The position numbers and the translations under genes were made by a program. The notes below the pieces were generated by a model. It ran no database searches and was not told the origin of the DNA. It saw only the letters and a list, made by a program, of their open reading frames with translations. Below are positions 6,690-64,000 of a stretch of DNA of 64,000 bases, one piece after another; the stretch's first letter is position 1, and each line of letters begins with the position of its first letter. The stretch is from Hymenopus coronatus (taxonomy: Eukaryota; Arthropoda; Insecta; Mantodea; Hymenopodidae), in NCBI GenBank assembly GCA_030762935.1, contig CM060900.1, positions 374,747,132 through 374,811,131 on the forward strand, given 5' to 3'.

Positions 6690-7400
6690 AAATATCTGAT
6701 ACATTCCATTCACATGGCGTTCTCTGTCAGTTCTGCAAACCATCTTTCTTCCAAAAGCTATTCTATTTATTTCATGCTAATCCAGGTAAAAATTAACAGC
6801 AATGGTATTAGTTCTTAGTGCCTTATAAGCAAAAGGTAAATAAGGGAACACATTATGCTAACGCAACAGTCAAATCTTTTAAAAGATGAGGTTATGTGAT
6901 TGTCATTGACATTGATTCAGGAAAACAAACAGAGATATGAAACAGACGAGTGCTTCTGGTTTGAGAAAAGTAGTATTTCAACATTTAAACCAATAACATG
7001 GGTTATCTCGGAAATATTTATATCTACAGCAAAAAAAAATCTGCGGGACATTTTTATGCAATAAATTTCTGTGTATCTGTTACACAAGTTTAACAGTTAT
7101 GCAAAAGTTCTTAGGAATGAAGACTTCAGGAGCAATTCCCAAGAAATTCAGGATATAAATGTTATTGGCCATGTAAACACCTTTAATTAACGTGTTTTAA
7201 TCTAAATTTGTAATGATGTTTTAGAAAATCGAAAATGTTAATAATGTTCTATTTATTGGCGTGCGGGGGGGGGGGACGGTTTTCCTGAAAATCTTTGGCC
7301 GCATCGTTGGAAAATACAAAACTTAGTTTAGTGCTTAACCGTCTTGTCGTTTCTGAGCTATGCTGTCCACACACACACACGCGCGCGCGCGCGCGCACAC
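6690..7400 (-). repeat. R1 repeat, blocks i to b
   Basis: The minus-strand copy begins at the tail block ('tccattcacatgg') and runs through 'cttataagcaaaagg', 'ccaataacatggg', 'aggagcaattccca' and 'gatattttt'-type spacer to 'gagctatgctgtccac' and the CA tract. A run of nine or more G lies at about 7265-7275 where other copies read 'gggtggggggat'. Block a is missing. Confidence 0.8.
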
Positions 7401-7404
7401 GCAC
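7371..7404 (+). repeat. (CA)n/(CG)n alternating tract
   Basis: An alternating pyrimidine-purine run at the block b CA tract of R1. Other R1 copies have a much shorter CA tract here. Confidence 0.9.
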
Positions 7405-8159
7405 TGTCCTTATTCTAGACACTGTCCTTAATATTTCCCGTATTTCTGTTTGCTATACATTTTTGAGCAAATATATTCTTACTGCTCAAACGCGTTCCTT
7501 GAATAAACATATTAAGATGTTTTATGTGCTTATGTCTATTACTGAAAGGAACAAAAAGTAACCTCTTCTTCTCTGAATCTCTACCGCAATGTGTTTTACT
7601 ATATGCTGTGCTTTGTGATCGAGGGGATTTGAATACCGATATTAGCATCCCCTTGTTTCAAAGTCTCGGCATGACCCCTGACCTTCAGTTAACCGATATC
7701 GACGATATACTGGGAATAAAGGCTTTGCGGCCACATCCTGCACATGGAAGCTAGCGCGGCGTTTCAAATTTTAAATACACATACATGACATACGCATGCT
7801 TTAACTCTGTCTTGTTTTGTTTGTGCAACCTGAAAATAAATAAAATAGTGATGCTAAATATTGCAGTGAAACAACCCTCACACTGAACACGGTGTGAGCG
7901 AGAAAATGCTGCTGACGGCTAACCAAGGGTAGAAAAACCTCACATGTGCTATGTGTATAGCTTTAAGACTATTTCGTACTGTAAAAAATGCGCATGCTCG
8001 TATTACGAAATATTTTCCAACTCATTTTGAAAGAAATTATTTCCAAAATCCTAAAGCTGACTTTAGGGCTACTTTTCTAGCATAAATATTCATTTAAGCC
8101 TATGATTGGTGTTTTCATAAACAAAGACATGTGAAACTATTATTATTATTAGTTATATA
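7405..8159. other. Interval without recognised features
   Basis: AT-rich. The short open frame near 7524-7754 follows from the edge of R1 into single-copy sequence and matches nothing known to me. Confidence 0.4.
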
Positions 8160-8516
8160 TTTTTACTTTTCTAGCCCACACACATAGTAGCTAGAAAAGG
8201 CATTGTATTCCCTCAAAAAATTAGATGTCGAGATTTCGCCGAAAATAAACATTTTAAGAAAAAGGTCCATATGTACCTGTGGACAGAATATCTCAAAAGC
8301 GGAAAGATCGTTAAAAGCCAAACTTCGTATTTATGTTTAGTGTCTTTAGTGTGCGTCATGAATATTTTTTTTAAAAAATCATCCACAACAAACTGTCCTT
8401 TACATGGAAAACTTTCTGAAACTTTTGTTTTTCTTAAAAACACCTCTAACTATTTTTATTAAATAGTATATATTAAAAATATTTATATTACAAATAAAAT
8501 TTATATTTTGAATTAG
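8160..8516 (+). repeat. R1 repeat, blocks a to e
   Basis: It starts with the R1 head ('ttttacttttctagc'), then 'gattt' with a degraded 'ccgaaaataa', 'gtccat...ctgtggacag', 'ctcaaaagcggaaag' and 'ttacatggaaaac'. It ends at the 'gaatt' of block e. It has lost the right half. Confidence 0.8.
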
Positions 8517-8748
8517 CAAACGCACTGCATTAAAGGAATAATATTTTAGTAACTCTCTAAACCAGAAAAAAAAAATATTAAATAGGTGTGAACTGCTGTG
8601 CAACATGTTCATTAGCGACATATTCTGAACAGATATATGAAGTACAAAAGGGCATATTGCGGAAAACGGTGTTAAAACACAGAGTCCATGCAACACTCCT
8701 TACATCCAATCTATAACATCTAATCTCATATCGCCATATTTGCCTTTG

Positions 8749-10118
8749 GAACAATTGCTCATTGGCAATGATCACTCATTTTACTGTTGTGTTATCTTCG
8801 GGTTTGTCTATTTGGGTTTTATATTTAAACCTTTAAAATTAGGCTCACGTGAGTGCACACACACATATTTATATTGCCTCTCATACTTCTTAACCTTAGG
8901 GAGGCTAGACAATAACCCTGGATAAAGAAATGCTACAATCCCCCAGCCAGTACTGAAACCGGGACTTCTGGATTTAAAAGCTGATATGCTAACACTAGAG
9001 CACATGAAAAAAGCTGTTATTATGTTTCCTCACATTTATCCTGAAATAGCTTTGCGATGGGGACATTAAACATGAAGGCAAGACAATGAAGTAATAATTA
9101 TATTTTGTCTTTGGATTTCATATTGACAACACCCTTATAAAGCGTTGTCAGGAAGACTTGTTTATTTATAATTAATAACATACTTCGGATATGAATCGTA
9201 TTGCCTTGCGCTAAACTTGATAGACAGTAGAGCACTAAAACTATATTGTTGTTTACAAATAATTGATCCAGTTAGACTACCCCTACATCTTTTGATAATT
9301 TTTAATTACGGTGAATAGAATGTTATGTGCAATCCATATATATTGAATTCTTTTCCAGTTTGCTATTGCTAAAAATCATTACTCGGAAACCATCCCAAGC
9401 TCTAAAAATGTATATGTAAATTTAAATGGGGATGCGCAAAGTATGAAAACGTAACAAGCAATGGATTGATTAAAAGCTCTTGGAGAATTGTTGACAACGA
9501 ATGAATTTCTAAAATGAAATCGGCTGCGTTAAACAAAAACGAAATTATACTCACGATATCAATAACAAGTGCAAAAAGCATTCGTTGAGAATTTTAGGGA
9601 TGAGTAGTCAATTGTAAGTATCATTTCATTAGAAATGTTGTCTCGACTTCCCAACCTTATTAATGCATTCCCTTAAAATAAAATTAAATCAGAATAAAGA
9701 AATACAGGTATTGTAGATATTGGTTACGGTAACAGAGGGACCATTTTTACTATCTAGAATCCCTGTTTCAGGCAAGCTCTAACTGGAAGAGACAAAATGA
9801 AATAGGATATATTGTTGTACGGCTCAGTGGCTCTAGATATGTTTGCAGATGACACAAGGTTCTGGAAGCTAAAATATCTTCATCTTAATTTACGCTTCAC
9901 TGAATAACGACTCGGCATCATGTAGGAAGTCCACATGTATATTACAGCTAATGCTTAGAGATGCATGATAACAAGGAAAATGTTGCCCTACATACTCCAA
10001 CCGTGCTTGAACGTGGGAGTGTCGCTACGTCTCCTATTAAAAAAAAAATTTTAGAGCACGCTCAACCGTGAAAGTCTTCATATGCGTAAGGTGATTTGCC
10101 ACGTGTCAGTTCACGTCT
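8749..10118 (+). repeat. R2 repeat, copy C
   Basis: Collinear with copy B (3530-5045). Its right edge, at 'cacgtctac', is joined directly to block e of an R1 copy, so R2 lost its last part there. About 5.2 kb separates equivalent points of copies B and C. Confidence 0.75.
8820..9005 (-). mobile_element. SINE-J copy inside R2 copy C
   Basis: Counterpart of 3612-3800: a degenerate tRNA-like head on the minus strand ('cccggtttcagtactgg'), a 'gaagtatgagaggca' body and a TG/CA tail. It lacks the long CT run of the other copy. Confidence 0.5.
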
Positions 10119-10120
10119 AC

Positions 10121-10220
10121 AAATAGAATGTATGTTTTGAATTTTCTGGGAATAGCCTCTGAATGAGCTCCTAGACGAGTTCCGCAGAATTTTCTATAAC
10201 GGTGAAACAGAGAGAGAGAT

Positions 10221-10251
<31 letters not shown>

Positions 10252-10622
10252 TTAAATCTTAATACATAAAAAATATAGATCTCGTTAAAACACATAATTT
10301 ATGCCATCTATGTTTTTTCTTGTAGAATTAACCGTTTTTGAGACATTCCTTGCTATTGGTTTCAATTATAAATTACCTAACTTTTCTCAAACGGGATCAT
10401 GCAAAGTGAATCGAGCCTCAAATGTTTCACATAGTAACAAGCTTGTAAAATATTTTACTACGGCTTTAGCATAATGTATTCTCTTATTTCCCTTCTGCTT
10501 ACAATGAAGCAAGTAATAAGACCGATTCTGCAAATGTTTATCTCCATTAGCATGCAGCAGATAGAGGAATAATGTTTTGTAAGAAATTTGTATTTGGAAA
10601 AGCTAAAGAAAGTTATATGATT
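10121..10622 (+). repeat. R1 repeat, blocks e to i
   Basis: It reads 'ttgaattttctgggaatagc', then, in place of most of block f, a GA microsatellite, 'ctcgttaaaacaca', 'attggtttcaatt', 'ctcaaacggga', 'ttatttcccttct' and 'gctaaagaaagttat'. The tail is cut at 10622 by a SINE-C insertion. Confidence 0.85.
10209..10251 (+). repeat. (GA)n microsatellite
   Basis: Imperfect GA run inside R1, grown where other copies have 'agagatagacaaaaac'. Confidence 0.95.
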
Positions 10623-12714: not shown

Positions 12715-13540
12715 CATTTTTATTTCTCTACTATACAATAAATAGGGGAATTATTATATTTTGTTCAAAAATTCTAAGTAGAGATTTCACCGGAAATATA
12801 TTCTTTGGGCAAAGAGTTACAACTGAAACAAAAAACCGTAGTAAAGAGAATTTGGTAATATAATATGTTTTGTGTGTTTAAATGCCTACCCCACAGCATC
12901 TGGCAAATTAAATATGTTTAGTGGCCTCCTGAACTCAAAAGAAGATTTAGCAAACGTTTAGTGTGCGCGCGTGTGTTTCTTTGAAGTACATAGCTCAAAA
13001 ACAAAGAATAGTTTAAATAGGAAACTCTCCACCTCTAAATTAACGTTTACACTATAACAACAACACATTTAAGATACTTAGATAGGGAATAAATTATAGA
13101 AGTATTCTTCATTATGAATAACGTTTGCATACTGGTAAACTGTAAGAGGTGGAAAAAAACTTGTTACACAAAAACTGTAGATCTCGTTAAAGCACAGAGT
13201 TTACGTCGGAAAAATTATTTTTGATGAGTTAATCATTTTCAGGATATTCCTTGTTACAGTTAGGCTTTTAGAACGCTATACTTTCCCAAATAGGTAGTCA
13301 TTATTAATTTTTTCTCTTGGCAATATAGCAGTACAGAAATTCGAAGTTATCGCATAATAACCGCTCTTAAAAGATTTGAGCATTGATTAAAGTCTACCAC
13401 ATCCCCTTAATTCCCTTTTACCCAAAAAGAATAAATACAATCTTTATATATGTTATTTTGATTAATATGAATTAGATAGAAGAACAGTTTTGTACGAGAG
13501 AATAGAGAAAGTTATGTGAGTGCAACAAATCTTATATATG
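12715..13540 (+). repeat. R1 repeat, full but strongly diverged unit, first of a tandem pair
   Basis: The head 'tttctctactat' and 'agagatttcaccggaaata' are clear. Blocks b and c are degraded ('gtgcgcgcgtgtgt', 'tagctcaaaaacaaag'), with an extra stretch at about 12830-12900. Blocks f to i are recognisable ('actggtaaactgtaagagg', 'ctcgttaaagcaca', 'ttcccttttacc'). It passes directly into another head at about 13540. Confidence 0.75.
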
Positions 13541-13700
13541 TTTACATTCTATAGAACGTATGTACAATGTATATGGCAGATAGAGATTGTATTATATTCC
13601 ACCCAAAAATTCGATGCCGAAGTGTCACCGGAAATACATCTTTTGAGGATCACTAAATCCAAAAAAATCTACAAAGTAGTTTAAGAGCTCATTTCAGATC
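13541..13700 (+). repeat. R1 repeat, blocks a and b, second unit of a tandem pair
   Basis: It follows the previous unit head-to-tail: 'gtatgtacaatgtat', 'cacccaaaaattcgatgccg', 'tgtcaccggaaatac' and 'ttgaggatcactaaatcc'. It decays after about 13700. Equivalent points are about 840 bp apart, matching the unit length. Confidence 0.8.
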
Positions 13701-13844
13701 GCAAACTTGATCTTTATGGAATCCATACGCAAAGCAGTGGAGCAAGCGTAAAATGCAAGCGTAAAGTTATTCTGTTGCAACTTTATGCTTGCTAAAATAA
13801 TTCACGATATTAGTGTGTATACATCACTGTTCAACAGATAAATT

Positions 13845-15335
13845 TTGGATTCAGGGGTCCTAAAATGTGTATTTCCGGTGAAAATTCGGTATCTAATTTT
13901 TGGGCGGAACACAATACCTTTTCTATTCACAATGTACATTGTACATTGTACATATGAAGCTAGAGAAAGTAATAATATTTTTTGTAGCAGTAGTTTGTTT
14001 GCTGAACAGATAGAAAGAATCATGTGAATGGAATACAAGAGTTTTTTTTATTGTTTTGTTTTTGTTTAAATTTTACCTACGGCACAGATAGAAGAGCCAC
14101 CACTTGATGCAGCGTCAAATATTGTGACGAATCTTCATTTTCGTGTTCTGGCCTGAACAAATGAGTAACATTCACAATGATTTATCTAGTCCGCCTCCGC
14201 CTTTACATTGCCCCACGTTGCTTGCAATTCTCACTTGATGAACACTGGAGGTTAACAAGATCGCATATGCTACTCCAGCAGCTTTCTATTTGGAATAAAT
14301 TCACGTATCTAGTTTCCTGCCTGTAAGCCAATTGACTACTCCACTGTAAACTGCTGGATCACTTTGAAAATCCAATAAGTGTAATCGAAAATTAGTTAGA
14401 GAGTTTCAAGCATGCAAGGATGCTAAGGAGAAAACTATCCAGTATTTGCTAGCTAATTATCAGGCAACCTGACAGCAGATAAGCCTGTCTATAATCCTGC
14501 TTACCTATTCACTAGTGCTGAGAGAGCTTTATAATAAAGCACAGCAAACTCTTCAGTAAATCAGCTTCTAGCACCGATATACTATGTGGCTCATTAAATT
14601 ATCAGCTCCGGGAATGTACATAAAAACTGAAGATATTTTACAAACTATTTTATATAATTATCACATTAAAAAGCTTAACTTGTGTAACATCTTAAAGATT
14701 GCATTTTTTAACCCTACCACAAATAAAATGTTAGTGCTTAGAATACATGGGTCAAAGGTGACTTGTAAGTTCTAAATGGAAAAATGACTAACAGAGAAAT
14801 ACACCAGAATCAGTTGCTCTGATTTTGCACCAAGAACATTTAAATTATGTTTGATGTATCTAAGGACACTAGATCCGCGTTTTATAGTGTTTTTGGCTTT
14901 AACTTGAAATCTACTTATCTGAAAATTAACATACCTACTTAAATTAATGCATCTGTAAAACTTGGAAACTGCACAGAATGGAAGGTATATTATTAAAATG
15001 CACACCAGTTATTATACTCGGTAACTGTGACATTTTTCCTATATATCTAAATTCTAGCTTACATAGTTATTTGAATGGCAATTTTGTACTGTATAAATCA
15101 TTGTTCTAATAAAACTGAGTCACGGTATGCATTTATAAATATATTCATATAAAACAGCAGGCTTTACTATGAATGAAATATATATATATCATATATGCTT
15201 TTATATTAACCCGAATTATTGTAGAAATTTATTACCTTTCTTCTCCCCATAACAGTTCCTGCTTTAAAATGGAGGAGTACTTACATTTGAGAGGCAATAT
15301 GACATTTTAAAACAAATTAGCCACAAATTGCATCG
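13845..15335 (+). repeat. Duplicated 1.5-kb block, copy 1
   Basis: Nearly identical to 22337-23837, with a handful of substitutions seen over several hundred compared bases and one 21-22 bp indel near 15288. It begins with an R1 blocks b/a piece on the minus strand (13845-13955) and an R1 block i piece on the plus strand (13965-14045). About 1.29 kb of sequence not found elsewhere in the window follows. No convincing protein domain was found: the same 77-residue minus-strand frame (14772-15005) exists in both copies but resembles nothing I know and is not evidence of a gene, since the whole block is conserved by recency. Confidence 0.9.
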
Positions 15336-20514: not shown

Positions 20515-20884
20515 AAACTTCCATAAATGAGTGGATAGATATGACGTACAGAGATCTAAGACACTATAATGACATAAAGTCAAAATTTATGGCAATTTCA
20601 TTCAATCTCTCCATGAATAAAACGATTGTGTAACAATACGAATTATATAACCCAACAAGATTTGTCTTGAAGATTGAAGAGTTACGATATTCCCTAGCTG
20701 TGTCTCTCACTTTTACATTTGACATAGTTTCACGACCACAAAGCCTTCGTCATATATAGGCACCCCCCCCCCATTTAATGGAATGACCTGAAGTTTCAAT
20801 AGTTGAACAATTGCGAACCTACAGGATTATTTTCGGAATTAAATTTCTAAAACAGCTATTAACTGTTGACTGCTTTCAAATGTT

Positions 20885-21735
20885 TACTTTTTCTAGCACG
20901 TACAACGTACACAGAAGGTATGGTGTTTCAACCAAAAATTCTATACCGAGTTTCCAATGAAAATACATGTTTTAAGAGCCCCTGAATGCAAAAAAAGCAT
21001 TTTAGTTAGCTTTCCGTGTGTCTGTTTGTGTCTGTGGACAACATAACTCAAAAACGAAAGTCCGTTAAATATCAAACTTTGAATACGACAACAAGATTTT
21101 CACTAAACTCCTCTCACCCCAAGCTACCCTTTGCAAAGAACATTTTTCGAAATTTTCAATTTTATCAAAAAATGGCTCTAGAAATTTTGATTAAAACGCC
21201 GCATATTGAAGATACTTACAAGGTAAGTAAAATGTAACATTTTTAAACATTTTCGAATTTTTAAAGAAATGGCTCTAAAGATTTTGTTTAAAATGCCGTA
21301 TATAAAAGAAGTTTACATGTCAAATAAAGTGTATTTACTTAATTTCTTGGGAATAGCCCTTGAACTACTGGTAAACCGTAAGAGATAGACAAAACTTACT
21401 GCACAAAAAATGCAGAACTCATTAAAACACACAATTTATGTCATATACACTTTTTATAGAGGTAAACATTTCAGAGATATTTCCTGTTAATGGTTTTAAT
21501 TTGAAAATACTTAAATTTTGCTTAAACGAAAATCACTAATCCGTTTCATGTCTCTTTTGTTTTACTCCCAGCCTGGAAATATAATCGGATTTCAGTGACA
21601 AATGCATAACAACATCTTTAAAAATGTTTTGACTGTGGCTTTACCCTAGTGTATTCTTTTATTTCCCTTATGCTTATAAGGAATAAGGCTATTTAAGATA
21701 ATGCTTATCTTGATTAGCATTATTGAGATAAAAAT
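20885..21735 (+). repeat. R1 repeat, full unit with internal duplication, left arm of an inverted pair
   Basis: Head 'ctttttctagcacgtacaac', then all blocks in order up to 'gattagcattattgagataa'. Block d occurs twice in tandem (about 21140-21240 and 21240-21340, each with 'atggctcta' and a following 'gattttgtttaaaatg'-type string). The unit stops before its tail and meets a minus-strand unit. Confidence 0.88.
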
Positions 21736-22460
21736 CTGAAGTTATACATTCATTTGACTCTCTCTAGCTGCTCTACAAACAAACTTCTTATAAAAGATTC
21801 CTTATAAGTAGTAGGTACCTAAGGAAGCCGCTATACTAAAGTAATAGTCAAATGTGTTATACGCTGTCGTTGTGCGATTGTCATTGCAAATCGCTTCTTT
21901 GCTAGGCCAGGAGTAGATAAAAAGGAAAACGGACATTTCCTGTCTAAGAAAAGTATAAGTAATTTACAATTGAAATTAATAACAAGGAATATCTCGAAAA
22001 CGACAAAATCCAAGAAAAAAAAAATATACCACATAAATTGTGTATCTCAACGAGATCTACACTTTTTGTGCAGTAAGTTTGTGTCTATCTCTTACGGTTT
22101 ACCAGTTATGCAAAATTCAGTAAAATTCATCCAGAATATGTAGGTCTTCAGAAGCTATTCCCAGAAAATGTAAGATACATATTTCGTTTGTGAAGGATAG
22201 TTAGGGGTGGATGGATTTCCTTGAACATCTTCGTGTCGCATCCTTGGAAGATACCAAACTTAAATACCGTCTTTTTTGAGCTATGCTGTCCACAGCCACA
22301 CACACACGAGGACCTTTTCCTGAAAATGCTTTTTTTGGATTCAGGGGTCCTAAAATGTGTAGTTCCGGTGAAAATTCGGTATCTAATTTTTGGGCGGAAT
22401 ACAATACCTTTTCTATCCACAATGTACAATGTACATTGTACATATGAAGCTAGAGAAATA
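21736..22460 (-). repeat. R1 repeat, full unit, right arm of an inverted pair
   Basis: It starts with the complement of the R1 tail ('aaaaatctgaagttatacat', 'ctctctagctg') and runs through all blocks to 'ccggtgaaaattcggtatct' and 'caatgtacaatgtacattg'. Together with 20885-21735 it forms a near head-on inverted repeat with almost no spacer. The region from 22337 onward also belongs to the duplicated 1.5-kb block. Confidence 0.88.
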
Positions 22461-23837
22461 ATAATATATTTTGTAGCAGTAGTTTGTTTGCTTAACAGAT
22501 AGAAAAAATCATGTGAATGGAATACAAGAGTTTTTTCTATTGCTTTGTTTTTGTTTAAATTTTACCTACAGAACAGATAGAAGAGCCACCACTTGATGCA
22601 GCGTCAAATATTGTGACGAATCTTCATTTTCGTGTTCTGGCCTGAACAAATGAGTAACATTCACAATGATTTATCTAGTCCGCCTCCGCCTTTACATTGC
22701 CCCACGTTGCTTGCAATTCTCACTTGATGAACACTGGAGGTTAACAAGATCGCATATGCTACTCCAGCAGCTTTCTATTTGGAATAAATTCACGTCTCTA
22801 GTTTCCTGCCTGTAAGCCAATTGACTACTCCACTGTAAACTGCTGGATCACTTTGAAAATCCAATAAGTGTAATCGAAAATTAGTTATAGAGTTTCAAGC
22901 ATGCAAGGATGCTAAGGAGAAAACTATCCAGTATTTGCTAGCTAATTATCAGGCAACCTGACAGCAGATAAGCCTGTCTATAATCCTGCTTACCTATTCA
23001 CTAGTGCTGAGAGAGCTTTATAATAAAACACAGCAAACTCTTCAGTAAATCATCTTCTAGCACCGATATACTAAGTGGCTCATTAAATTATCAGCTCCGG
23101 GAATGTACATAAAAACTGAAGATATTTTACAAACTATTTTATATAATTATCACATTAAAAAGCTTAACTTGTGTAACATCTTAAAGATTGTATTTTTTAA
23201 CCCTACCACAAATAAAATGTTAGTGCTTAGAATACATGGGTCAAAGGTGACTTGTAAGTTCTAAATGGAAAAATGACTAACAGAGAAATACACCAGAATC
23301 AGTTGCTCTGATTTTGCACCAAGAACATTTAAATTATGTTTGATGTATCTAAGGACACTAGATCCGCGTTTTATAGTGTTTTTGGCTTTAACTTGAAATC
23401 TACTTATCTGAAAATTAACATACCTACTTAAATTAATGCATCTGTAAAACTTGGAAACTGCACAGAATGGAAGGTATATTATTAAAATGCACACCAGTTA
23501 TTATACTCGGTAACTGTGACATTTTTCCTATATATCTAAATTCTAGCTTACATAGTTATTTGAATGGCAATTTTGTACCGTATAAATCATTGTTCTAATA
23601 AAACTGAGTCACGGTATGCATTTATAAATATATTCATATAAAACAGCAGGCTTTACTATGAATGAAATATATATATCATATATGCTTTTATATTAACCCG
23701 AATTATTGTAGAAATTTATTACCTTTCTTCTCCCCAAAACAGTTCCTGCTTTAAAATGTAAATAGTTATTTCTCTAAATTGGAGGAGTACTTACATTTGA
23801 GAGGCAATATGACATTTTAAAACAAATTAGCCACAAG
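22337..23837 (+). repeat. Duplicated 1.5-kb block, copy 2
   Basis: Near-identical copy of 13845-15335, about 8.5 kb away in the same orientation. It carries 21-22 extra bases near 23760 ('taaatagttatttctct' and following) that copy 1 lacks. Its right edge passes straight into R1 block f/g sequence, whereas copy 1 passes into unrelated DNA after 'attagccacaa'. So the block ends at the same place in both. Confidence 0.9.
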
Positions 23838-24195
23838 TACATTTTTTCTAGAATTAACCGCTTCCATTACTTGTTTTCCATTATTTATTGGCTTCCATTT
23901 TAAACTACTTAAACTTGTATCCGCTTTTGTTTTAAATCTCTTTTGTTTTACTCCCAGGAATGCAAAAGAGAACCAAATTTCAATTGTTTCACATACCAAC
24001 AAGGTTTTAAAGGTTTTGACTCTCTCTTTAATCTAGTATGCTCCCGTTTTCCCCTTCTACTTACAAGGAAGGAGTAATAAGACAATTACTACTGATGTTT
24101 ATCTCGATTAGCACGATAGATAAAGGAGTATATTTTGTGACAATAGTTTGTATAAAATGTCATTGAATGCAACACCTGTATTTTCAAGCTAAAAG
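23838..24195 (+). repeat. R1 repeat, blocks g to i
   Basis: 'ctagaattaaccgctt', 'ttttaaactacttaaac', 'gttttactccc', 'ccccttctacttacaagg' and 'gatttatctcgattagca'-type text, ending at 'acacctgtattttc'. Confidence 0.82.
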
Positions 24196-26859: not shown

Positions 26860-27725
26860 TTCTTACTTTCCCTACATGTACTATGCAAATAGAAGGTAGA
26901 AAAGGTATTGTATTCCACCTACAACTTCGGTATCGATATTTCACTGGAAATATATGTTTTGAAGTCCCCTGAATCATAAAATGTGTTTTTAGAAGAATGT
27001 CTGCGTATATCTGTAGACAGCATAGCTCAAAAACGAAAAGGCCGTTAAACACCAAATTTTGTATTTATGTTTAATATATTCCAAGCATGTGACACGAAGA
27101 TATTAAAAAAATAATCCCACCCCAAACTATCATTCACAATGAAATATTTTGACCATGTATTTCTCAAAAATGGCTCTAAAATATGATTAAAGTACCGTAT
27201 ATTAAAGGTGTTTACATGAAATATAAAATGCAATTCTTGAATTTTCATGAAATTGCACGAAAGAACTCTTCGTTTAGAATGAATTTTGCTTAACTGGTAA
27301 ACATTAAGAAATAGACAAAAACTTACTACACATAAAATGCAGATCACGTTAAAATACAATTTATGTCATATACATTTTTGTAGAGTTATCCGTTTCCGAT
27401 GGTTTCCTGTTATTTGTTACTTAAACTTTTCTCAAACTGGAGGTCATCTTTCGTTTGGTATTTCTTTTCTTTACTCCTGGCTATACAAAGCAAACCGTCT
27501 TTCAATTTTTTCACATAGCGAACGGCTTTACAAAAGATTTGACTACCGCTTTTGCCCAGTGTATCACCTTATTTCCCTTCTTCATAGAAGGAACTAATAC
27601 AAGCAATTTTGCTGTTTGTTTTGATTACACGATGCAGATAAAAGAATTATATTTTGTAAGAATAGTTTTTGGAGTAAATCATATGATGTAACTCAATAGA
27701 TTTTTTTCAATCAAATTGACCACTA
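26860..27725 (+). repeat. R1 repeat, complete solitary unit
   Basis: A good reference copy. a: 'ctttccctacatg' and 'tttcactggaaatata' (26865-26960). b: 'tgtagacagcatagctcaaa'. c: 'ccgttaaacacc' to 'gtgacacgaagat'. d: 'caaaaatggctctaaa'. e: 'tgaattttcatg'. f: 'taaacattaagaaatagaca' to 'cacgttaaaatac'. g: 'ccgatggtttcctg'. h: 'ttactcctgg' to 'caaaagatttgac'. i: 'tatttcccttcttcatag' to 'catatgatgtaactcaat'. Open frames across it are short and differ between copies, so I see no sign of coding. Confidence 0.88.
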
Positions 27726-37087: not shown

Positions 37088-37660
37088 AGTTAACATTTTT
37101 TATATGTTCCATTCACATGGATATCTCTATTTATTCCGCAACGAATAATGATTACAAAACCTTATTCTTCCTTGCACTTCATGCTAACGATCATAAGCAT
37201 TAGCAGAAATTGTTTTACTGCTTAATTTCTTATAACCAGCGGGGAAATAAGGGAATAGCCAAGCTATGGCGACAGTCAAATGTTTTAAAATCTAGTTGCT
37301 ACTGATTGAAATTTGGTTCTCTTTGCATGGACAGAAATAAAACAAAAGAAACAGGAATGCAAAATGCACGTATGAGAAAATTGTGTTTTTAAAAATTGAA
37401 ACCAGTAATACTAAGGAATAGCTCAGAAATTGTTAGCTCTAGAAAAACATGTATATGACATAAATTACGTACTTTAAAGAGAGCTGCATGTTTTTGTGTT
37501 TGCGTTTGTCTGTTTCTTACAGTTTATCAATTTTGCAAACGACTTCCAGAATGAATAGGTTTACAGAGGCTATTTCTAAAAAAGTCATCAAAGTCGTTAG
37601 GGCAGTTTTGAAAAGACAAAATTTTCATTGCCATGGAAACTAATTTTTGGGACATTAAAA
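37088..37660 (-). repeat. R1 repeat, blocks i to d
   Basis: Tail complement 'gttccattcacatgg', then 'ttataaccagcgggg', 'aaccagtaatactaagg' and 'tacagtttatcaatttt', ending near 'aattttcattgccatgg'. The head half is missing. Confidence 0.82.
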
Positions 37661-41303: not shown

Positions 41304-41403
41304 CCACTTCTTTACTTTCTCTAGCACTTATGTACAATGTACATACAAAGCGGGTAAAAGAAGATATTGTATTCCACCCAAAATTAGATACCAAGGTTTC
41401 ACC
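41302..41403 (+). repeat. R1 repeat, block a only
   Basis: 'ttactttctctagcacttat', 'gtacaatgtac', 'cacccaaaattagatacc' and 'ggtttcaccg'. It is then replaced by R3. The left edge shows the R1 terminus against LINE sequence. Confidence 0.82.
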
Positions 41404-42300
41404 GAGGATAAGCCTGGTCGTCGCGCAATTTATACTGAAAACTTGCTTTTGTACGTCCTCATGGATACGCATTACGTCATGGAACATTTTTTAAAGTCGC
41501 AATTTGCAAATCTAACATGCTATGCTGCCGGACGTTCCTATTGTATGAGAGTTTCCTAACTTCAGGCTGTAGAAACTTTGGCTTCACTCACTTTATATGA
41601 ACAATAAATACATTTTAGCTTTCATATTTACTTCAGTTCAATATGCACGTACTTTCTCGTGACGGTATCAGTCATATTATATGTCGAATCAGTGGTGTAA
41701 AATGTCCTTTGAGCATGTTCTCAACAGCATGAACAATCTGAGTATATATTTTGTTTTTTTAGAGAATGAGTACAAGGAATATTTGCAAACTCGTGTAAAA
41801 TCATTCTATTAGAAGTGAAAAAACGCAAGTGAAAAACGCAAGTAAGACCGAGTTCTCTCAACGCGCTTTATCATTCATACAATATATCCGTATTTTCATT
41901 AACCGTTAAATTTTTATGGTTTAATTCGCTTTTATTTCTCAGTTATTGACGGCATCAAGTCGAAATGAATGTTTCGCATCACACAAGAGATATGCTATGC
42001 CTGTCTTTATATGAGCAACTCTTGGGATGCCACTCGATAAATTGACAAACAAAATAGGAAGGTGCGAACATAATTCAAGATAAACTATAATGTCCTCACG
42101 TCAACCCATTGCGTCCTGCATGTTCTATTTGCGAACACTGCACAGCTAAGTTTTCCTTGGTTTCATTATACCTACACCGTTATGGTTTCTTTGATTACAC
42201 TAGCTTAAGCAACACGACCATTGGTGCAATATGAAACATTAGCAACTTCCGAGAATAAACAATGCGTGCGGCATGTGTTACCTGAGAAACTTGTGAGGAT
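41403..42300 (+). repeat. R3 repeat, copy 2
   Basis: Collinear with 24723-25565 plus 26385-26505, without the roughly 820-bp stretch between them. Landmarks: 'gcctggtcgtc', 'acgtcatggaac', 'gacggtatcagtcat', 'tgtttcgcatcacacaagag', 'ttttccttggtttcat' and 'cttccgagaataaacaatgc'. Confidence 0.75.
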
Positions 42301-42624
42301 CAAAGGCAAAACGGCAGAATAATAAACTCAGTCTGTCCAAACCCCAACAGATATTGCCCGGGATGGGGAGTGGTTGGTTACCTCAGCGCCGCTGCCTATA
42401 ACCCATGACGTTCAGCTTTATTTCTTTCGACCCGTTTAGAAATTCCTATCCCTGGTGATTAAGATTTTTTCCATGGTTTAACATTATTGACAGACGTATT
42501 TATATGTTTTATTTATATATCTCCTAACCTTAAAAATTGCTTACAGTAAGAGTTGAAGTTATATGTTGTATAGTAATCTTTCTAATTCTTTTCTATTGGT
42601 TGTGTTCCAAAGGTAGTTGTGGTA
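42301..42624. other. Interval without recognised features
   Basis: Nothing recognised. Confidence 0.35.
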
Positions 42625-42910
42625 GGGCTTCTCCCGAAAATGTTTATGTCACATCCTTGGAGGATACTGAACTTAAATACCAAGTTTGGTATTTAAACGG
42701 CTTTTCGCTTTTGAGTTATGCTGACCTCAGGCAGACAAACACACACATGAACCTTTTTCTCAAAATGCTCTTTTCCCTATTTTTTTGGATTTCGGGGACC
42801 GTGAAACACGAATTTCCGGTGAAATATCGGTATCTATTTTTGGGGGGCAATAGGTTTACTAGCTACTAGATGTATTGTTACATACGTGCAAGAGAAAGTA
42901 AAAAGGCAAA
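42625..42910 (-). repeat. R1 repeat, blocks c to a
   Basis: 'gtcacatccttggagg', 'accaagtttggtatttaaac', 'ttttgagttatgctg', the CA tract, 'ccggtgaaatatcggtatct' and the head complement 'acgtgcaagagaaagt'. Confidence 0.85.
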
Positions 42911-43959: not shown

Positions 43960-44786
43960 ATAAAAAATCTTATGTCTTCCATTCACATGACTTTCTCTAT
44001 CTGTTCTACAAACTAATTATTCTTACAAAAAAGTATTCTTTTATCTACATAATGCCACTCAAGATAAAAATTTAGCAGAAATATTCTTAGTGCTTAGTTT
44101 CTTCTTATAACTGTAAGGGAAATAGTGGAATACACTAGACCGAAAGGTTTATCACTATGCGATTGCATTGAAATTTGGTACCCTTTCTTTGACCAGGAAT
44201 AAAACAAGTGGGATATGTAACGGATGAAGACCATTCTTTTTAAGAAAATTTTAAGTATTGTTAAGTTGAAACCAATAAAAGGGAGTATCTCTGAAATGGT
44301 TAGCTCTATAAAATTGAATACGACATAAATTGTATATTTTAACGAGAACTACACTTTTTATACAGCAAGATCTTGTCTGCCGCTTAAAGGTTTACCAGTT
44401 ATGTAAAATTCGTCAAGAATGAACAGGACTTCAGGAGCTATTCCCAAGCAATTCAGAATATACATATTATCTGTTATGTAAAGATATTTAATATAGGAAT
44501 TTTAATCAAAATCGTTAGAGCCAATATTCAGAATATCTAAAATTCGAAAAATCGCCATGTAATGCGTAGTTTAGATTGGGGTGATTTTCCTGAAAATCTT
44601 CTTCATGTCGCATCTTTGGAAGATACAAAACTTAAGCACTAATTTTGGTATTTAAGCGACTTTTCGTTTTTGAGTTATGCTGTCCTAAGACACACACAGA
44701 ACAGACACATTTAGGACCCTTTTCTAAAACACAATACCTATTCCACTACCAAGTACACACATTAATATACGTGCTAAAGAAAAAAA
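43960..44786 (-). repeat. R1 repeat, full unit, first of a minus-strand tandem pair
   Basis: Tail complement 'cttccattcacatgactttc' through all blocks to the head complement 'atacgtgctaaagaaa'. It is followed at once by another tail complement, giving a head-to-tail pair with a period of about 820 bp. Confidence 0.87.
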
Positions 44787-45487
44787 AAGTATGTGTTCCA
44801 TTCACATAACCTGTCCTTTCTGTTCCACAAACAAAACATTCTTGGACTGCCTCCGTGGTCGAGTGGTCAGCGAGCTGACTTCTCACCCGGGGGTCTCGGG
44901 TTATATTTCCGCCTGGGGTGGGGAATTTTTCTCTAGCCAGAATTATTCTCTATCCCCCACAGAGTCTGGAAGTGAATGTGTGCGTGTTTGAATAAAACAA
45001 AACGATTTAAACCAACGTAAAAGTACCTACAGACAACGAGTTGTTTCAAGTGGAAAGCCCCCGATATGACCTTAGATGTTAAAGAAGGCTATATAAATCA
45101 AACAATAAAAAAAAATCTTATAAAAGAGAATTCTTTTGTCTACATAACGCCTAATTAGAATAAACATTACCAGACATTGTCATATTACTTTGTTGTTTAT
45201 AAGTAGAAACGAAACAAGGAAGTACACTAGGTTTAAGCGATAGCTAAATATTTTAAAACCTGGCACTATGCGTCTGACAATGAAATTAGGTTCTCTTTCC
45301 AAGGGCAGGGGTTGTTAAACAAAATAATTATGAAATGAAAGGTAAGTTACCGTTTGAGAAAAGCTTAAGTAGTTTAAAACTGAAATCAATAACAAGGAAT
45401 ATCTCGGCGACGGTTAACCCTAAATGTATATGACATAAATTGTTGTTTTAACGAGCTCTACATTGTTTTGTGTTGTAAGTTTTTGTA
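44787..45487 (-). repeat. R1 repeat, blocks i to f, interrupted by SINE-G
   Basis: Tail complement 'gttccattcacataacc' up to 'aaacaaaacattctt', then the SINE. It continues with 'ataaaagagaattcttttgt', 'cactaggtttaagcg', 'caaggaatatctcggcg' and 'taacgagctctac', and ends before block e. Confidence 0.85.
44848..45113 (+). mobile_element. SINE-G (tRNA-derived) inserted into R1
   Basis: The head 'gcctccgtggtcgagtggtc' (A-box) and 'gtctcgggttatatttccg' (decayed B-box) are followed by 'agtctggaagtgaatgtgtg' and a tail ending in an A run near 45103-45112. The R1 sequence on its two sides joins into the normal block i, so the insertion site is clear. A possible short target duplication is 'tctt'. Confidence 0.85.
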
Positions 45488-45665
45488 TATTTATTTTTAT
45501 AGCGAGTGAATATTGTGCTATAATTTGTCATATGTCTATGGTACCTATTGTAGTTAATGTTTACAACCACAATTTGCACTCTTTTTGCACATATCAATTA
45601 AATTAGCGGTGCTCTTTTGGAACTTTTTGATCAATATTTTGCACCTAAATTTCCTAACTCTAAAT
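45488..45665 (+). repeat. R4 repeat, copy 2
   Basis: Counterpart of 12115-12285 ('atagcgagtgaatatt', 'gcacctaaatttcctaactc'). Confidence 0.6.
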
Positions 45666-45929
45666 ATAACATATACAAAGAGTTTTAAGGTTAAACTCAG
45701 CAAAGACAGATTTATGACTTTGGAAATGGGATTACGTACCTCCAAATTTATGTATTTCAGTGAAACTTTGACTAAGATGCATTTGGTGAACTATTAAAAG
45801 TAAATATAATAATTTTAAAATCAATGTGATAATATACTTCGTTGTTTACGAGATAGTTAATGACGCCTACCGATGTTCTGATACTGCAGGGAGGGCCAAG
45901 TAGCACATGGATCTCGAAACGCATTGAAA

Positions 45930-46685
45930 TCTGATGTGTTACATTTACATGACTTTCTCTTGCTGCTCTACAAACAAACTTTTTACAAAAGATTATTCTT
46001 CTTTCTACAACATGCTAATCAACATAAACATTAGCTGAATGTTCTTATTACGTAGTTCCTTATATGTAGAAGGGAACTAAAGGAATACGCTATGATAAAG
46101 GGATAGTCAAATGTTTTAAAAGCCTTCGTCATACGATTGTCATTACAAATCGCTTCTTTGCTTGGCCAGGAGTACAACAAAAGCGCACACTTCCTGACTG
46201 AGAAAAGTATAAGTACTTAAACAGTTGAAACCAATAATAAGGAATATCTCTGAAAAGGTTACCTACAACAAAAGTGAAAACGACATAAATTCCGTGTTTT
46301 GACGAGACCTACACTTTATGTAGAGTAAGTTTTTTTCTATCTCTTATGGTTTAGCAGTTAAGCAAACATAGGCAAAATTTGTCCAGAATAAAGAGGTATT
46401 CAGAGGCTATTCCCAGAAAGTGAAAGATATACATTTTATTTGGGATGTAAATATCTTTAATATACGAGATTTTAATAAAAATCGTTAGAGCCATATTTTT
46501 CCATGTAAAGGGTAGTTTGTCGTCAGGTATTTCCTTGAAAATGTTCATGTTGCATCCTTGGAAGATACCAAACCTAAATACAAATCCCAAAATATATATT
46601 TCCGGTGAAATCTCACAACGAATGTTTGGATGGAATACAATATGTACATTGTACATGAGGGATAGATAAAGTAAAAACAGACAGC
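45930..46685 (-). repeat. R1 repeat, near-complete unit, block b deleted
   Basis: Tail complement 'gttacatttacatgactttc', then blocks i to c. Directly after 'gaagataccaaacctaaata' comes 'aaatatatatttccggtgaa' (block a), so the TG/CA-rich block b is missing. The end is 'gtacattgtacatgaggg' and 'atagataaagtaaaa'. Confidence 0.85.
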
Positions 46686-51029: not shown

Positions 51030-51715
51030 CCTATCATAAGTAGTGTGTGTTTGCATTTTGGAAGCATAGCTCAAAAACTAAAAGTTGGTTAAACACAAAA
51101 CTTGGTATTTGGGTTCAATATCTCCCTAGGATGCGACAAGAAGATTTTCAAGAAAATTCCCCCACCCCAACTACACTTTTCGAAAATTTTATTTTCTCAA
51201 AAATGGCTATAATGACTTTGACAAATATAGCATATGTTTAAAATATTTTTATGACAAATGAAATGCATATCTTGAATTTCAGGGAATAGCTTTTAAATAC
51301 CTCTTCATTCTAGATGACTTTTATACAACCTTTGTGTGACTGGTAAACCGTAAGAGATTTACAGAAACTTACTATAAAAATGTAGATCTGGTTAAAACAC
51401 ACAATCTATGTCATATACATTTTTTGCAGAGTTGACCATTTTATAGATATTCCGAGTTGTTGGTTTCAGTTTAAGATACTTAAAATGTTTCTCCAACGGG
51501 AAGTCATTCACAGCAAGCAAAGAGAATCAAATTGTTTCACATAGTGCTCGGCTTTTAAAAGATATGACTAGCGCTTGGCCTGAGCGTTCTCTTATTTCCC
51601 TTCTACTTGCAAATAAGCAAACAATAGGACCATCATGATGTAGATAAAAGAATAAACTTTTGTAAGAAAATTTTGTTTGTGGAACAGCTAGAGAAAGCCA
51701 TGTAAATGGAACACA
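51030..51715 (+). repeat. R1 repeat, blocks b to i, first of a tandem pair
   Basis: It starts within block b ('agcatagctcaaaaactaaa'), then 'gggttcaatatctccctagg', 'actggtaaaccgtaagag' and 'ttatttcccttctactt', with tail 'gctagagaaagccatgtaaa', joined directly to the next head. Confidence 0.86.
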
Positions 51716-52612
51716 TCATATTTTTATTTTCTCTAGCCCGCATGTACAATGTACCTACTGGATAGAGTAGGTCCTGTATTTCACCCAAAAATTACATGTA
51801 GAAATTTCACCAGAAATATATATTTTGGGGTTCTCTGATTCTGAGAAAAGCATTTTTAGAAGAAGGCCCGTGTGTGCCTACCTGTCAGTCTGTGTGTCTG
51901 TGGACAGCATAGGTCAAAAACGCAAAGACCGTTAAATACCAAACTTGGTATTTTCGTTTAGTATTTTCCAAGGATGTGACACGAAGATTTTTGAGAAAAT
52001 ACCCCCACCACAAACGACCCTTTCCATGGACAATTTTTCGAAAATTTTGATTTTCTTAAAAATAGCTCTAAAGATATTTATTAAAATCATGTTTATTAAA
52101 GCTATTTACATCCCAAATAAAATGCATATATTGGATTTTCTAGGAATAGCCTGCATGATGTGTGCCTAATTTTGCTTAATTGCTAAGCCCTGAGAGATAG
52201 ATAAATACTTACTACACAAAACATGTAGATCTCGTCAAAACAAACAAGTTATGTTCTTTACGTTTTTGTTGTGGAGGTAAGCGTTTCCGAGATATTCCTT
52301 ATTATTGGTTTCAGTTGTGAAGTATTTATTCTTTTCTCAGACAAGAAGTGTCCGTTTTTCTTTTGTTCTACTCCTGGCCAAGCAAAGAAGCGATTTTCAA
52401 TGACAAACGCATAACGATAGCTTTTAAAACAGTTGACTAACATTTTAGCCTAGTATATTCCCTTAGTTCCCTTCTACTTATAAGGAACTAAGTAATAAGA
52501 ACATCTTGCTAATGTTATCTCGATTAGCATTGTGTAAAAGGAAGAATAATCTTTTGTGGGAAGCTTGTAAAGCAGCTAGAGAGTCATGTGAGTGTAAGAC
52601 ATCAGATTTTTT
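51716..52612 (+). repeat. R1 repeat, full unit, second of a tandem pair
   Basis: Head 'attttctctagcccgcatg', 'ttcaccagaaatatata', 'gtctgtggacagcatagg', 'gtgacacgaagatttttgag', 'ctcctggccaagcaaag' and tail 'gctagagagtcatgtgagtg'. The junction shows the inverted motif pair discussed in the findings. Confidence 0.88.
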
Positions 52613-53448
52613 CTTATCTGTTTCAGGGTTTTAGTACCAGGCGACAAAGCTTAACCTTAGCGTGTTGCGGTAGGGCAGTTGAATTTTCGCTCTGGAAATA
52701 TTTCTCCCTAGCGCATGGCGGGACTCCTGGGTCCCCTTCTCTCCTCTCCAGGTCGTGGGTGGCTTAAGACAGGGCTGGATTGGTGTCATGTGACGGTGAG
52801 GAACACCGTCCTAGCTGCCAGGCAACGTCGTCTATATTTGGTCATTTTTCACACTGGAAGCATAAAGCCCAAGTGCAATGCTGACGGAGAAGCTGGACGG
52901 TATAGAAAATTAAGAGACGTGCTGATGTAAAAAGTGCGTATTGTACCCTCGCATTAAACAGAAGCTATTTTTCTAGTATTTCATTTTCGCCTCGTAAATT
53001 AAATAAATTATACACATTATAGGTTTCGTAATTATATTAATAAACTTTAAACGTATAATATATGTTTGTTCTACATAATACACTTTTACCCATGCTGAAA
53101 GGAAATGGAACATAAGGAAAATTTTGAAGTGCAACAACCTAAATCATAAACATTTAAAGAGCATTCACTATATATGATGATACTGAACAGCCAAGCGGTA
53201 TTCTCACAAATTCTTCAGCGTTTTGAAATGGGAGAATGATTTCGAATCTTACATGGTGGTTTATCTTCCCTTACCTTTAATGTTTTTTTATTCAGGAATA
53301 TATCAAAGTTAAACATAAGTTATGCCTCCGTATACTTTACATTTAGATCAGAAAGAATTAAAAATTAATATATGTAGTACACTGCTTAAAACATGCCACA
53401 ATAATAATAAATAATTTTCCTACTTATGGAATACAAACTATGTTAAGA
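52613..53448. other. Interval with a GC-rich patch
   Basis: 52640-52930 is GC-richer ('gcatggcgggactcctgggt') and contains a 71-codon frame with no domain I recognise. The remainder is AT-rich. Confidence 0.35.
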
Positions 53449-53784: not shown

Positions 53785-54260
53785 ACTAGTATACCGTAAG
53801 ATATAGACAAAACTTGCTCTACAAAAATGTAAAATACCTTAAGAGTTACAATATTAAAATTTGACTCCAATTGAATAACTGCAGCTCCTCTTTTTTATCA
53901 AGAAATAATTCGCTGAAAACCAAATCTGGAATATTAGAAATTGGTCACTTTAGAAGCAAAGTACGTGCACTTGTAGGGCGCATGTCGTTAAGCCATTTTT
54001 GAGAAAAACTAAATTTTCAAAACGTTTTCCACGTAAAGAGTAGTTTGCAGTAGGAGAATTTTCTTGAATATCTTCGTGCCGCATTGTTATAAGATACTAA
54101 ACTTAAATACCAGGTTTAGTAATTAATGACCTTTTCGTTTTTGAGCTATACTCTCCGCAGTATTACACACACATATTAGCCTTCTCTAAAATTTATCTTT
54201 TTGGATTCAGGGAACCTCAAAACATTTATCTCGTTTTATATTAAATTTTGTACGGCATAC
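53785..54260 (-). repeat. R1 pieces: block f on plus strand, blocks d to a on minus strand
   Basis: 53785-53840 carries 'accgtaagatatagacaaaa' in plus orientation. 53990-54260 carries 'agccatttttgagaaaaact', 'ttgaatatcttcgtgccgca', 'cttttcgtttttgagctata' and 'ttggattcagggaacc' in minus orientation. The pieces are inverted relative to each other. Confidence 0.7.
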
Positions 54261-56780: not shown

Positions 56781-56819
<39 letters not shown>

Positions 56820-59481: not shown

Positions 59482-59512
<31 letters not shown>

Positions 59513-62169: not shown

Positions 62170-62505
62170 CGGACTAAGGACCTCTAGGACTTAGACACCC
62201 AACGCCTGGGATCAAATGCCTGTTGAGGAGCAGAAATACTCTAATTCAGAGAGAGAGAGAGTAGCCAGGTCAGGTGATCATTCCGATGCCTAGTATAAGA
62301 GTAAGGAAGAAGATAATTGCCATAAAATTGATGAAAGAAAATGAGATTATTGCGCAGGTGGTGGAATGAATGAAGGCAAAACTGGAGAATTCGCACCAGA
62401 TGCCCCTTTGTCCAACAAAAAGCCAATATACTGTCCCCTAGTATCGAACTCTGGCTACCTTGGTGAGAGGTGTCCGGTTCTAACCACTCAGCCATGGCGC
62501 CGCCT
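62170..62505 (-). mobile_element. SINE-B copy 3 (tRNA-derived)
   Basis: Minus strand: 'ggcggcgccatggctgagtg' (A-box), 'agagttcgatactagggg' (B-box), 'ggctttttgttggacaaagg', 'tcattcattccaccacctgc', 'aggcatcggaatgatcacct' and 'tgctcctcaacagg'. A short GA run sits near its 3' end. Confidence 0.88.
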
Positions 62506-62571
62506 TTAACAACTTGTTTGTATTAAATATGTAAAGTAAAACTTTAATATTTATTTAAACTTACATGTATA

Positions 62572-63490
62572 AAAATCTGATGTGTTCCATTCAATGACTT
62601 TCTCTACCTGTTCCGCAAACAACGTACTTTTACAAAATATTAATCTTTTATATTTATATCATGCTAATCAAGATACACATGACTAGAGATTGTTTTATTA
62701 TATATGGAGATACCCTACGCTAAAATGATAGTCAAATCATTTAAAAGCTGGTCACTACGTAAAACAATTGAAATCCGGTTCTCTTTACATGGCCAGGAGT
62801 AAAACAAAAAAAGAGGTATGAAACGGAGGAGGGCTTCTTATTTGAGAAAAGTTTAATACTTTTAAAAATGAAACCAATAACAAAGAATAACTTTAAAATG
62901 GTTAGCTCTACAATATATGTATGACATAAATTGTGTTTTAATGAGATCTACATTTTTTGTATAGTACGATTTTTTCTCTCTCTTAAGATTTACCAGTTTT
63001 GCAAAAGCCATTCAGAATAAATAAAACTTCAGGGGCAATTCCCAGGAAATTCAGGATATACATTTTATTTACCAAATAAACGTTCGTAATACACGGCATT
63101 TTAATTGTAATCGTCTGAGCTATATTTTAGAAAATTGAAAATTTCAAAGTATTCCATTTAAAGTATAGTTTGGGGTAGGGTATTTTTCTGAAAATCTTCG
63201 TGTTGCATCGTTACAAAACACTAAACTTAAATATCAAGTTTGGACCAACTATTCCTTTTTATTTATGCTAACCGGAAACACACACACTCAGACAGACACA
63301 TATAAACACCAACAGACAAAGACATACACGGATCATACACGGATCTTTTTCTAAAAATGTTATTTAATGCAGAAGTCATCATAACATATATTTCGGTGAA
63401 ATATTCATATTGAATATTTGGGTGGAATGCAATACCTTCTCTACTTGCATTGTTTACATTGTGCATACGTGCTATAAAAAGTAAAAACCA
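62572..63490 (-). repeat. R1 repeat, full unit, left arm of an inverted pair
   Basis: Tail complement 'aaaaatctgatgtgttccat' and 'gactttctctacctg', all blocks, an expanded CA-rich block b with two 'tacacggatc' repeats, and head complement 'catacgtgctataaaaagta'. Confidence 0.88.
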
Positions 63491-63539
63491 GTTTATATAT
63501 ATGGCATGGTATGGTATCAAGTCTTGCGTAATGATACAT

Positions 63540-64000
63540 CTGTAAAAGTATTTTATATGGATTATTTTTCGAAATGTTCTATTTTCTAAGAAATGACTGT
63601 AAAGATTTTGATGTAAATATCGTATCATAAAATGTTTTATAGCAAATAAAATGTGAATACTGAATTTCTTGGCGAAAGTCACTAAAGCCCTCCTCATTCT
63701 GAAAGAATTTTGCCTAACTGGTAAACCATAAGAGATAGAAAAAGTGAAATCCCACAGAAAATGTAAATATCATTAAAGCACAGTTTCTGTCATATACAGT
63801 TTTTGTAGACCTAACCATTTTAGAGATATTCTTTGTTCTTGGTTTCAATTTTAAAATGCTTAAAGTTTTCTCAAAAGGAAAGTCCTCGTCCGTTTTATTT
63901 ATCCTTTTATTTTACTCCTGGCCATGGAAAGAGAATCGAATTTCAATGACAATCGCATAGCAAAAGCTTTTAAAAGCTTTGACAGTCGCTTTGGCGTATT
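63540..64000 (+). repeat. R1 repeat, blocks d to h, right arm of an inverted pair
   Basis: 'ttctaagaaatgactgtaaa', 'aactggtaaaccataagag', 'tggtttcaattttaaaatgc', 'ttactcctggccatggaaag' and 'aaaagctttgacagtcgc'. It runs off the right edge of the window. Blocks a to c are missing. Confidence 0.85.

Follow-up and report, generated by a model that had tools for sequence, protein, structure and literature searches.

In the genome of the mantis Hymenopus coronatus (3.127 Gb, 384 contigs), a window of 64,000 nucleotides at 374.75–374.81 Mb of contig C21 was found to carry many copies of one dispersed repeat family, designated R1, which by its anatomy very probably consists of non-autonomous rolling-circle transposons. 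R1 was detected by self-comparison and nucleotide profiles, the final profile being built from 11 copies and applied with a cut-off of E ≤ 1e-3. It gave 36 matches in the window, 20 on the plus and 16 on the minus strand, which sum to 15,028 bp and account for 23.5% of the window and 26.2% of positions 6690–64000. Six of the 36 matches score below 30 bits, with a minimum of 11.9 bits. An earlier profile built from 8 copies also produced 36 matches, the lowest at 12.0 bits, and in 20 dinucleotide-shuffled windows it returned 9 matches at E ≤ 10, the best of which reached 5.5 bits. Merging by hand left about 28 separate pieces, the full-length copies among them being approximately 820–920 bp long. 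Nested and head-to-tail placements occur among the copies, which the initial annotation of this DNA does not mention.

The limits of the repeat were established from 16 5' ends and 19 3' ends anchored in the window. Similarity begins at T2-5|ACTTTCTCTA and stops at CAGATTTT(T)|, and the information content drops outside (column statistics refer to the better-matching subset of 15 of the 16 5' and 13 of the 19 3' ends). Addition of ten 20-kb loci, picked around Helitron genes, enlarged the sample to 43 5' ends and 46 3' ends. The 5' ends, selected by at most two mismatches to TTACTTTCTCT, carry ACTTTCTCTA with 0, 1 and 2 mismatches in 21, 14 and 8 cases, respectively; the Ts at these ends number two to five in 38 of the 43 and exactly five in 17. 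Five is also the commonest T-run at the 3' ends (9 of 29, head-to-tail copies not being set apart). The 3' partner repeat TAGAGAAAGT was recognised with at most two mismatches in 36 of the 46 3' ends, against 3% of 4000 random sites. Beyond the Ts, no constant target-site duplication (TSD) was seen in 11 insertions, where the longest direct repeat averaged 3.0, compared with 2.69 in 5000 random pairs. The minus copy nested in a plus copy was inserted at an A-run of the latter, which corresponds to a T-run on the strand of the inserted element. Loss of ends is balanced: of 95 matches (matches, not copies) in the window and the ten loci, 29 keep the 5' end alone and 30 the 3' end alone, a symmetry unlike that of a long interspersed element (LINE).

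Read from its 5' end, R1 opens with the T-run and a subterminal inverted repeat (subTIR), followed by a palindrome together with the partial inverted repeat TAGAGAAGG and then by a GTCY/GT tract. A unique middle leads to the 3' part, which holds the inverted counterpart of the subTIR, a second palindrome and the terminal CAGATTTT. The two subTIRs are placed asymmetrically: about 5 nt separate ACTTTCTCTA from the 5' end, and about 27 bp separate TAGAGAAAGT from the 3' end. The partial inverted repeat beside the 5' subTIR (TTCTCT/AGAGAA) encloses a loop of 24 nt. The GTCY/GT tract, composed of GTCC/GTCT and GT units with a G+T fraction of 0.70, ranges from 3 to 96 bases in 44 copies, with a standard deviation (SD) of 18.6 compared with 1.6–12.0 for 23 other segments. 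The 3' palindrome, ATGTG-AATGGAA-CACAT, has a 5-bp stem and a 7-nt loop, 49 of 65 cells in 13 tails being paired. An RNA structure was rejected for the internal and 5' palindromes, in which 114 of 134 and 56 of 79 cells are paired, against 115.5 and 57.1 expected from column frequencies.

The 24 matches of at least 150 bp have a mean identity to the consensus of 0.815 and a Kimura two-parameter distance of 0.215, while pairwise identity averages 0.695 (SD 0.036, 193 pairs). Conservation is fairly even, at 0.74–0.87 identity in 40-column bins, and at least one subfamily was recognised (copies at 45926, 51722 and 21798). Judged from these figures, the copies in the window look like the neutrally decaying remains of an old burst, and some copies at other loci, which are 0.89–0.93 alike, may form a younger group. 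The consensus has 12–23 stops per frame and no codon-like pattern; 45 of 284 indels are multiples of three, and the substitution rate is 0.176–0.190 across the three codon phases. On these figures a coding remnant was rejected. Five R1-derived frames, among ten window proteins tested, gave no Pfam match at E ≤ 0.1. No B box occurs in R1 at up to two mismatches, three A-box-like matches being found at up to one mismatch, and scans of the window against Rfam (gathering threshold) and for tRNA were empty. Pattern scans of viral and prokaryote contigs and protein searches with R1-derived frames disclosed no relatives, such collections being poor places for an animal-type repeat.

Most of what the initial annotation had claimed was thereby confirmed, namely that about 25 copies or pieces on both strands fill about a quarter of the window, that they are diverged but keep their length and ends, and that they contain neither a conserved open frame nor RNA polymerase III boxes. 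The nine blocks that it described do follow a fixed order; as specially conserved islands they were not recovered, identity along the element being fairly even. Its view that R1 fits none of the common classes had to be abandoned, since R1, once its ends are anchored, shows the feature set printed for DINE-1/HINE and Helitron2. As for the two possibilities it had offered, a non-autonomous element agrees with the defined ends and the lack of coding capacity. A dispersed satellite agrees only in part: head-to-tail copies are numerous, yet the unit possesses insertion ends of its own and also stands singly on both strands.

The order of parts in R1 is that of DINE-1 (PMC2374699), of HINEs (PMC4067079) and of Cg_HINE of the oyster (PMC7492417), and Helentrons and DINEs have been grouped with Helitron2, with joined ends that point to a circle (PMC5148889). 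Because the whole set of features is present in the right order, an inverted repeat alone being insufficient, R1 is very probably a non-autonomous family of the Helitron2/Helentron branch, of the DINE-1/HINE type. This class is assigned by anatomy, not by a protein partner or a database match, and without a partner it does not distinguish Helentron from Helitron2.

With DINE-1/INE-1 of Drosophila, R1 shares the subTIR on both sides, the 5' partial inverted repeat, the GTCY microsatellite, the 3' stem-loop, the lack of an open reading frame (ORF) and the insertion at TT or T-rich sites (PMC2374699, PMC4067079). It differs in the subTIR itself, which is ACTTTCTCTA in R1 and is printed as ATACCCGTTACTC for D. 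melanogaster DINE-1, and in the 3' stem, of 5 bp against 7–11 (PMC2374699, PMC4067079); the 24-nt loop of the partial inverted repeat is just over the 3–22 bp printed for DINE-1 (PMC4067079). Cg_HINE of the Pacific oyster is alike in part order, GTCY microsatellite, T-rich insertion without TSD and dense occurrence in both orientations, but it has satellite-like central arrays, whereas the middle of R1, about 700 bp, is unique and the rows are made of whole R1 elements (PMC7492417). HINE-Mo of the mite Metaseiulus also has a subTIR near the 5' end, a 3' subTIR with palindrome, and a T-rich target with variable Ts, and the 5-bp stem of R1 falls in the range given for mite HINEs (5–10 bp). Deletion of Helentrons is shown to have produced some of the mite families, and no such parent was found for R1 (PMC4067079). 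FoHeli/Helitron2 elements of Fusarium share the asymmetric inverted repeats, the 3' one about 20–40 bp inside (about 27 in R1), the joined ends suggesting a circle and occasional tandem insertions; unlike R1 they are coding elements in few copies, with the target TNAT/A in FoHeli1 and 2 (PMC5148889).

Several observations speak against this placement. Taken by itself, the subTIR match is not overwhelming: a match of 9 bp, the length computed for the consensus, is reached in 36 of 2,000 shuffles and one of 10 bp in 9, and among 306 pairs of internal segments 12 attain 9 bp, 9 of these 11 bp. The 3' stem is short and without covariation, and the 3' subTIR lies about 27 bp from the end, against 38–60 bp in mite HINEs (PMC4067079). 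R1 lacks the central tandem repeats that are common to many HINEs and by which DINE-1 also differs from it (PMC2374699, PMC4067079). Direct repeats of 5 and 6 bp were seen near the ends in two insertions out of 11; among 5000 random pairs, 296 have at least 5 bp. Finally, no autonomous element with R1 ends was detected among the ten best Helitron loci, examined by their ends, and in the 10 of 20 loci with a readable Rep motif the type was canonical throughout.

These Rep genes were located through 112 matches to Helitron_like_N in the genome. The ten best loci, of 20 kb each, represent two families, A (four loci) and B (six loci), of about 5.3 kb where whole. A TCTATAT start is present in three of the four loci displayed for family A, and eight of nine displayed loci have the 3' end GTCAGCTAG; these are ends of the canonical Helitron kind. 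The Rep motif readable in 10 of 20 loci (L009–L028) is RGLPH in nine and RGMPH in one, and a motif of the RGLPH kind is assigned to Helitrons rather than Helentrons (PMC4067079). R1 was rejected as a cut-down copy of A or B, whose ends differ from its own. Positions 322–354 of R1 (33 bp) weakly resemble the 5' region of B, a likeness equalled in 0 of 300 shuffles for one B copy and in 12 of 300 for another; comparison of R1 with two copies of A gave no similarity. In one locus (L035), a B tail at 3376–4019 abuts an apparent B start at about 4022, and B may also stand head to tail.

The presence of A and B with their Rep genes, together with the 33-bp stretch, would suit a non-autonomous canonical Helitron (Helitron1) moved by either family. 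This origin is nevertheless improbable, as R1 ends in T-run/ACTTTC and CAGATTTT and not in TC...CTAG, and sits in T-runs; the 5' TC, the 3' CTRR and the insertion between A and T that characterise Helitron1 are not those of R1.

Genome-wide, the exact 16-bp 3' end AACACATCAGATTTTT occurs 128,024 times, its reversed control twice, and 355 DINE-1 copies are tabulated for D. melanogaster (PMC2374699); scaling exact ends to a copy number is unsafe, with 3 exact 16-mers in the 264 kb of the window and the ten loci against one per 24 kb in the genome. In the ten loci R1 adds up to 25.9 kb, with 0 to 46.5% per locus. The head-to-tail pattern ACATCAGATTTTTN{0,12}ACTTTCTCTA was found 9,249 times (control 0), and a 28-base junction pattern with up to two mismatches 7,044 times (control 0). 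Head-to-head junctions occur at 31 places (62 counted, the palindromic pattern doubling them; control 0). In exact matches head-to-tail junctions are thus about 300 times as numerous as head-to-head ones, counts that are not strictly comparable, the patterns having 23 and 30 fixed letters; judged by the intactness of ends in the sample, both should be findable with similar ease. Within the window and the ten loci, 4 of the 46 3' ends directly meet a 5' end (13531/13541, 33185/33187, 51727/51722 and locus L041, 3246), and a further case was read from the sequence (44786/44772). The same sample contains one head-to-head and no tail-to-tail junction, and the longest row read has three copies.

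The T content of the junctions was read from the first 100 listed of the 9,249, all on contig C1: T5 was present in 66, T6 in 9, T7 in 13 and T8, T9 and T10 in one each, with other letters in 9. T10 would be expected if every copy brought T5 at both ends, and its rarity indicates that a single T-run is probably shared between head-to-tail units. In a set of 76 copies, of which some are duplicated through overlapping loci, nine adjacent same-strand pairs (nested and head-to-tail) had a residual of 0.029, against 0.026 (SD 0.024) for all 2,495 pairs, which amounts to no excess of likeness. The members of the pair 51040/51722, with one T5 between them, belong to different subfamilies (0.69 identity; 51722 and 45926 are 0.83 alike). 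The lack of excess likeness between neighbours and the mixed subfamilies favour the view that new copies insert one after another in T-runs of older ones. Against this stands that neighbour likeness is a weak test of row formation in a star-like family, and that at C1:9442752–9444536 three head-to-tail junctions, all with T7, follow one another at exactly 880 bp, and two further junctions are spaced 899 bp. The 880-bp series is probably a short tandem array, and both spacings may reflect tandem amplification, by a circle concatemer or unequal exchange. Probably both routes, successive insertion and concatemer or unequal exchange, are in use.

The 9,249 junctions and the runs spaced 880 and 899 bp would also be in keeping with a dispersed satellite, in which segmental events would have spread a tandem repeat incapable of inserting by itself, and oyster HINEs do contain satellite-like repeats (PMC7492417). 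Such a satellite is very unlikely here, since only the few 3' ends listed above directly meet a 5' end, copies on either strand have one and the same pair of ends, one copy is cleanly inserted in another, and instead of long arrays without insertion ends the sequence read holds at most three copies per row. Equally hard to credit is a cut-and-paste miniature inverted-repeat transposable element, to which a short inverted repeat near both ends and the lack of coding capacity would point, as the repeats are subterminal and asymmetric (their distances to the ends being about 5 bp and about 27 bp), the 3' repeat is followed by a palindrome and the 11 insertions have no constant TSD. Least probable of all is a retroelement remnant (short interspersed element, LINE tail or long-terminal-repeat-like unit), suggested by a short A-run at the end when R1 is read in reverse and by LINE sequence within the window, and opposed by the lack of a tRNA, Rfam match or B box in the scans above, by direct repeats not above background and by the equal loss of either end.

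For R1 as a Helitron2/Helentron-type element, the following course may be proposed. A Rep/helicase supplied by an autonomous element would act at both subterminal repeats and peel off one strand, with termination at the 3' palindrome. The resulting molecule, probably circular and carrying a single T-run, would enter a T-run of the target. Existing copies, flanked by T-runs on one and the same strand, would themselves become targets, and new copies would land in the same orientation, giving short head-to-tail rows. A T-run on both sides is common in single copies, but a junction usually has just one T5, which would fit the exchange of a circle carrying a single T-run. It is conceivable, though proposed only tentatively, that R1 aims at itself, the T-run serving as a shared core at which the circle is exchanged into the target T-run, so that rows arise by successive landing and not by unequal crossing-over.

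Table 1 R1 copies in the window and parts of the exemplar copy (window coordinates).
Feature	Position	Strand	Basis or remark
R1 copy, model 88-920	6687..7437	-	profile match
R1 copy, halves 8161-8514 and 10119-10622, interrupted by F3 element	8161..10622	+	profile match
Degenerate R1 copy, three matches; 9 bp before head 13541-13665	12723..13531	+	profile match
R1 5' piece	13541..13665	+	profile match
Head (minus) adjoining tail (plus) of R1, in part within 97% duplication	13827..14048	.	profile match
R1 copy, 20883-21733 and 22453-22538, interrupted by minus R1 copy	20883..22538	+	profile match
Nested R1 copy at A/T-run inside 20883..22538	21727..22458	-	host copy restored to ~2 bp on joining the flanks
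R1 piece	23838..24177	+	profile match
Full R1 copy	26861..27707	+	profile match
Full R1 copy, worn 3' tip	30101..30918	-	profile match
Full R1 copy, member 1 of head-to-tail trio	31447..32284	+	profile match
Full R1 copy, member 2 of trio	32316..33185	+	profile match
Full-length exemplar copy, third of trio	33187..34071	+	model 4-918 of 922, 767.9 bits
Exemplar 5' subTIR ACTTTCTCT(A), Ts before	33189..33197	+	consensus and anchored ends
Exemplar partial inverted repeat TAGAGAAGG beside 5' subTIR	33221..33229	+	sequence
Exemplar GTCY/GT microsatellite-like tract, length variable	33322..33363	+	sequence
Exemplar internal palindrome block, consensus AAATACCAAACTTGGTATTT	33397..33416	+	no covariation
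Exemplar 3' subTIR, one mismatch to consensus TAGAGAAAGT	34034..34043	+	end alignment
Exemplar 3' palindrome ATGTG-7-CACAT	34045..34061	+	sequence
R1 3' half	37095..37587	-	profile match
Weak R1 piece, 16.8 bits	38654..38716	-	profile match
R1 5' piece	41311..41404	+	profile match
R1 5' piece	42609..42904	-	profile match
R1 copy, head to tail with tail 44786-44843	43961..44772	-	profile match
R1 tail piece, 13.5 bits	44786..44843	-	profile match
R1 piece	45116..45494	-	profile match
R1 copy carrying internal deletion	45926..46676	-	profile match
R1 copy, head-to-tail pair member 1, single T5 at junction	51040..51727	+	profile match
Full R1 copy, pair member 2, other subfamily than 51040	51722..52614	+	profile match
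Weak R1 piece, 11.9 bits	53752..53831	+	profile match
R1 piece	53985..54232	-	profile match
Full R1 copy	62569..63486	-	profile match
R1 copy cut by window edge	63552..63998	+	profile match

Other repeats share the window with R1. Family F3 has copies 73–80% alike at 8515–10096, 3535–5045, 270–844 and 1–171; the first-named of these interrupts an R1 copy and is bordered by imperfect direct repeats of about 23–25 bp. A 1.5-kb duplication (13843–15326 and 22333–23836, 97% identity) is much younger than the R1 pieces partly included in it. Positions 46882–48853 carry a LINE-like reverse transcriptase (RVT_1) in broken frames, the nearest protein being 59% identical among the 120 of 248 matches listed. 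The repeat pair 24733–25553 and 41408–42178 is 78% alike over 836 bp, and one ORF tested from it gave no Pfam match; a three-copy family of about 670 bp, 68–71% alike, lies at 37722–38396, 55221–55888 and 60075–60749. By eye, 26690–26780 resembles a tRNA-derived short interspersed element, and ARAGORN finds no tRNA there. No R1-like ends were evident by eye in the window families F2–F5.

An element of this kind is already known, and the point that may be new is the sharing of one T-run by head-to-tail units, at junctions numbering thousands; neither the R1 family nor one-T-run junctions were described in the titles and abstract openings searched, subscription journals being outside that scope. 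A class is given to a formerly unclassified quarter of the window, and a DINE-1-type element is seen to be very abundant in a 3.1-Gb genome. If the proposed exchange is correct, the thousands of junctions would make the sharing of terminal Ts between a Helentron and its target directly readable. The head-to-tail junctions offer a natural data set both for T sharing of the Helitron2 type and for the seeding of satellite-like rows by transposons.

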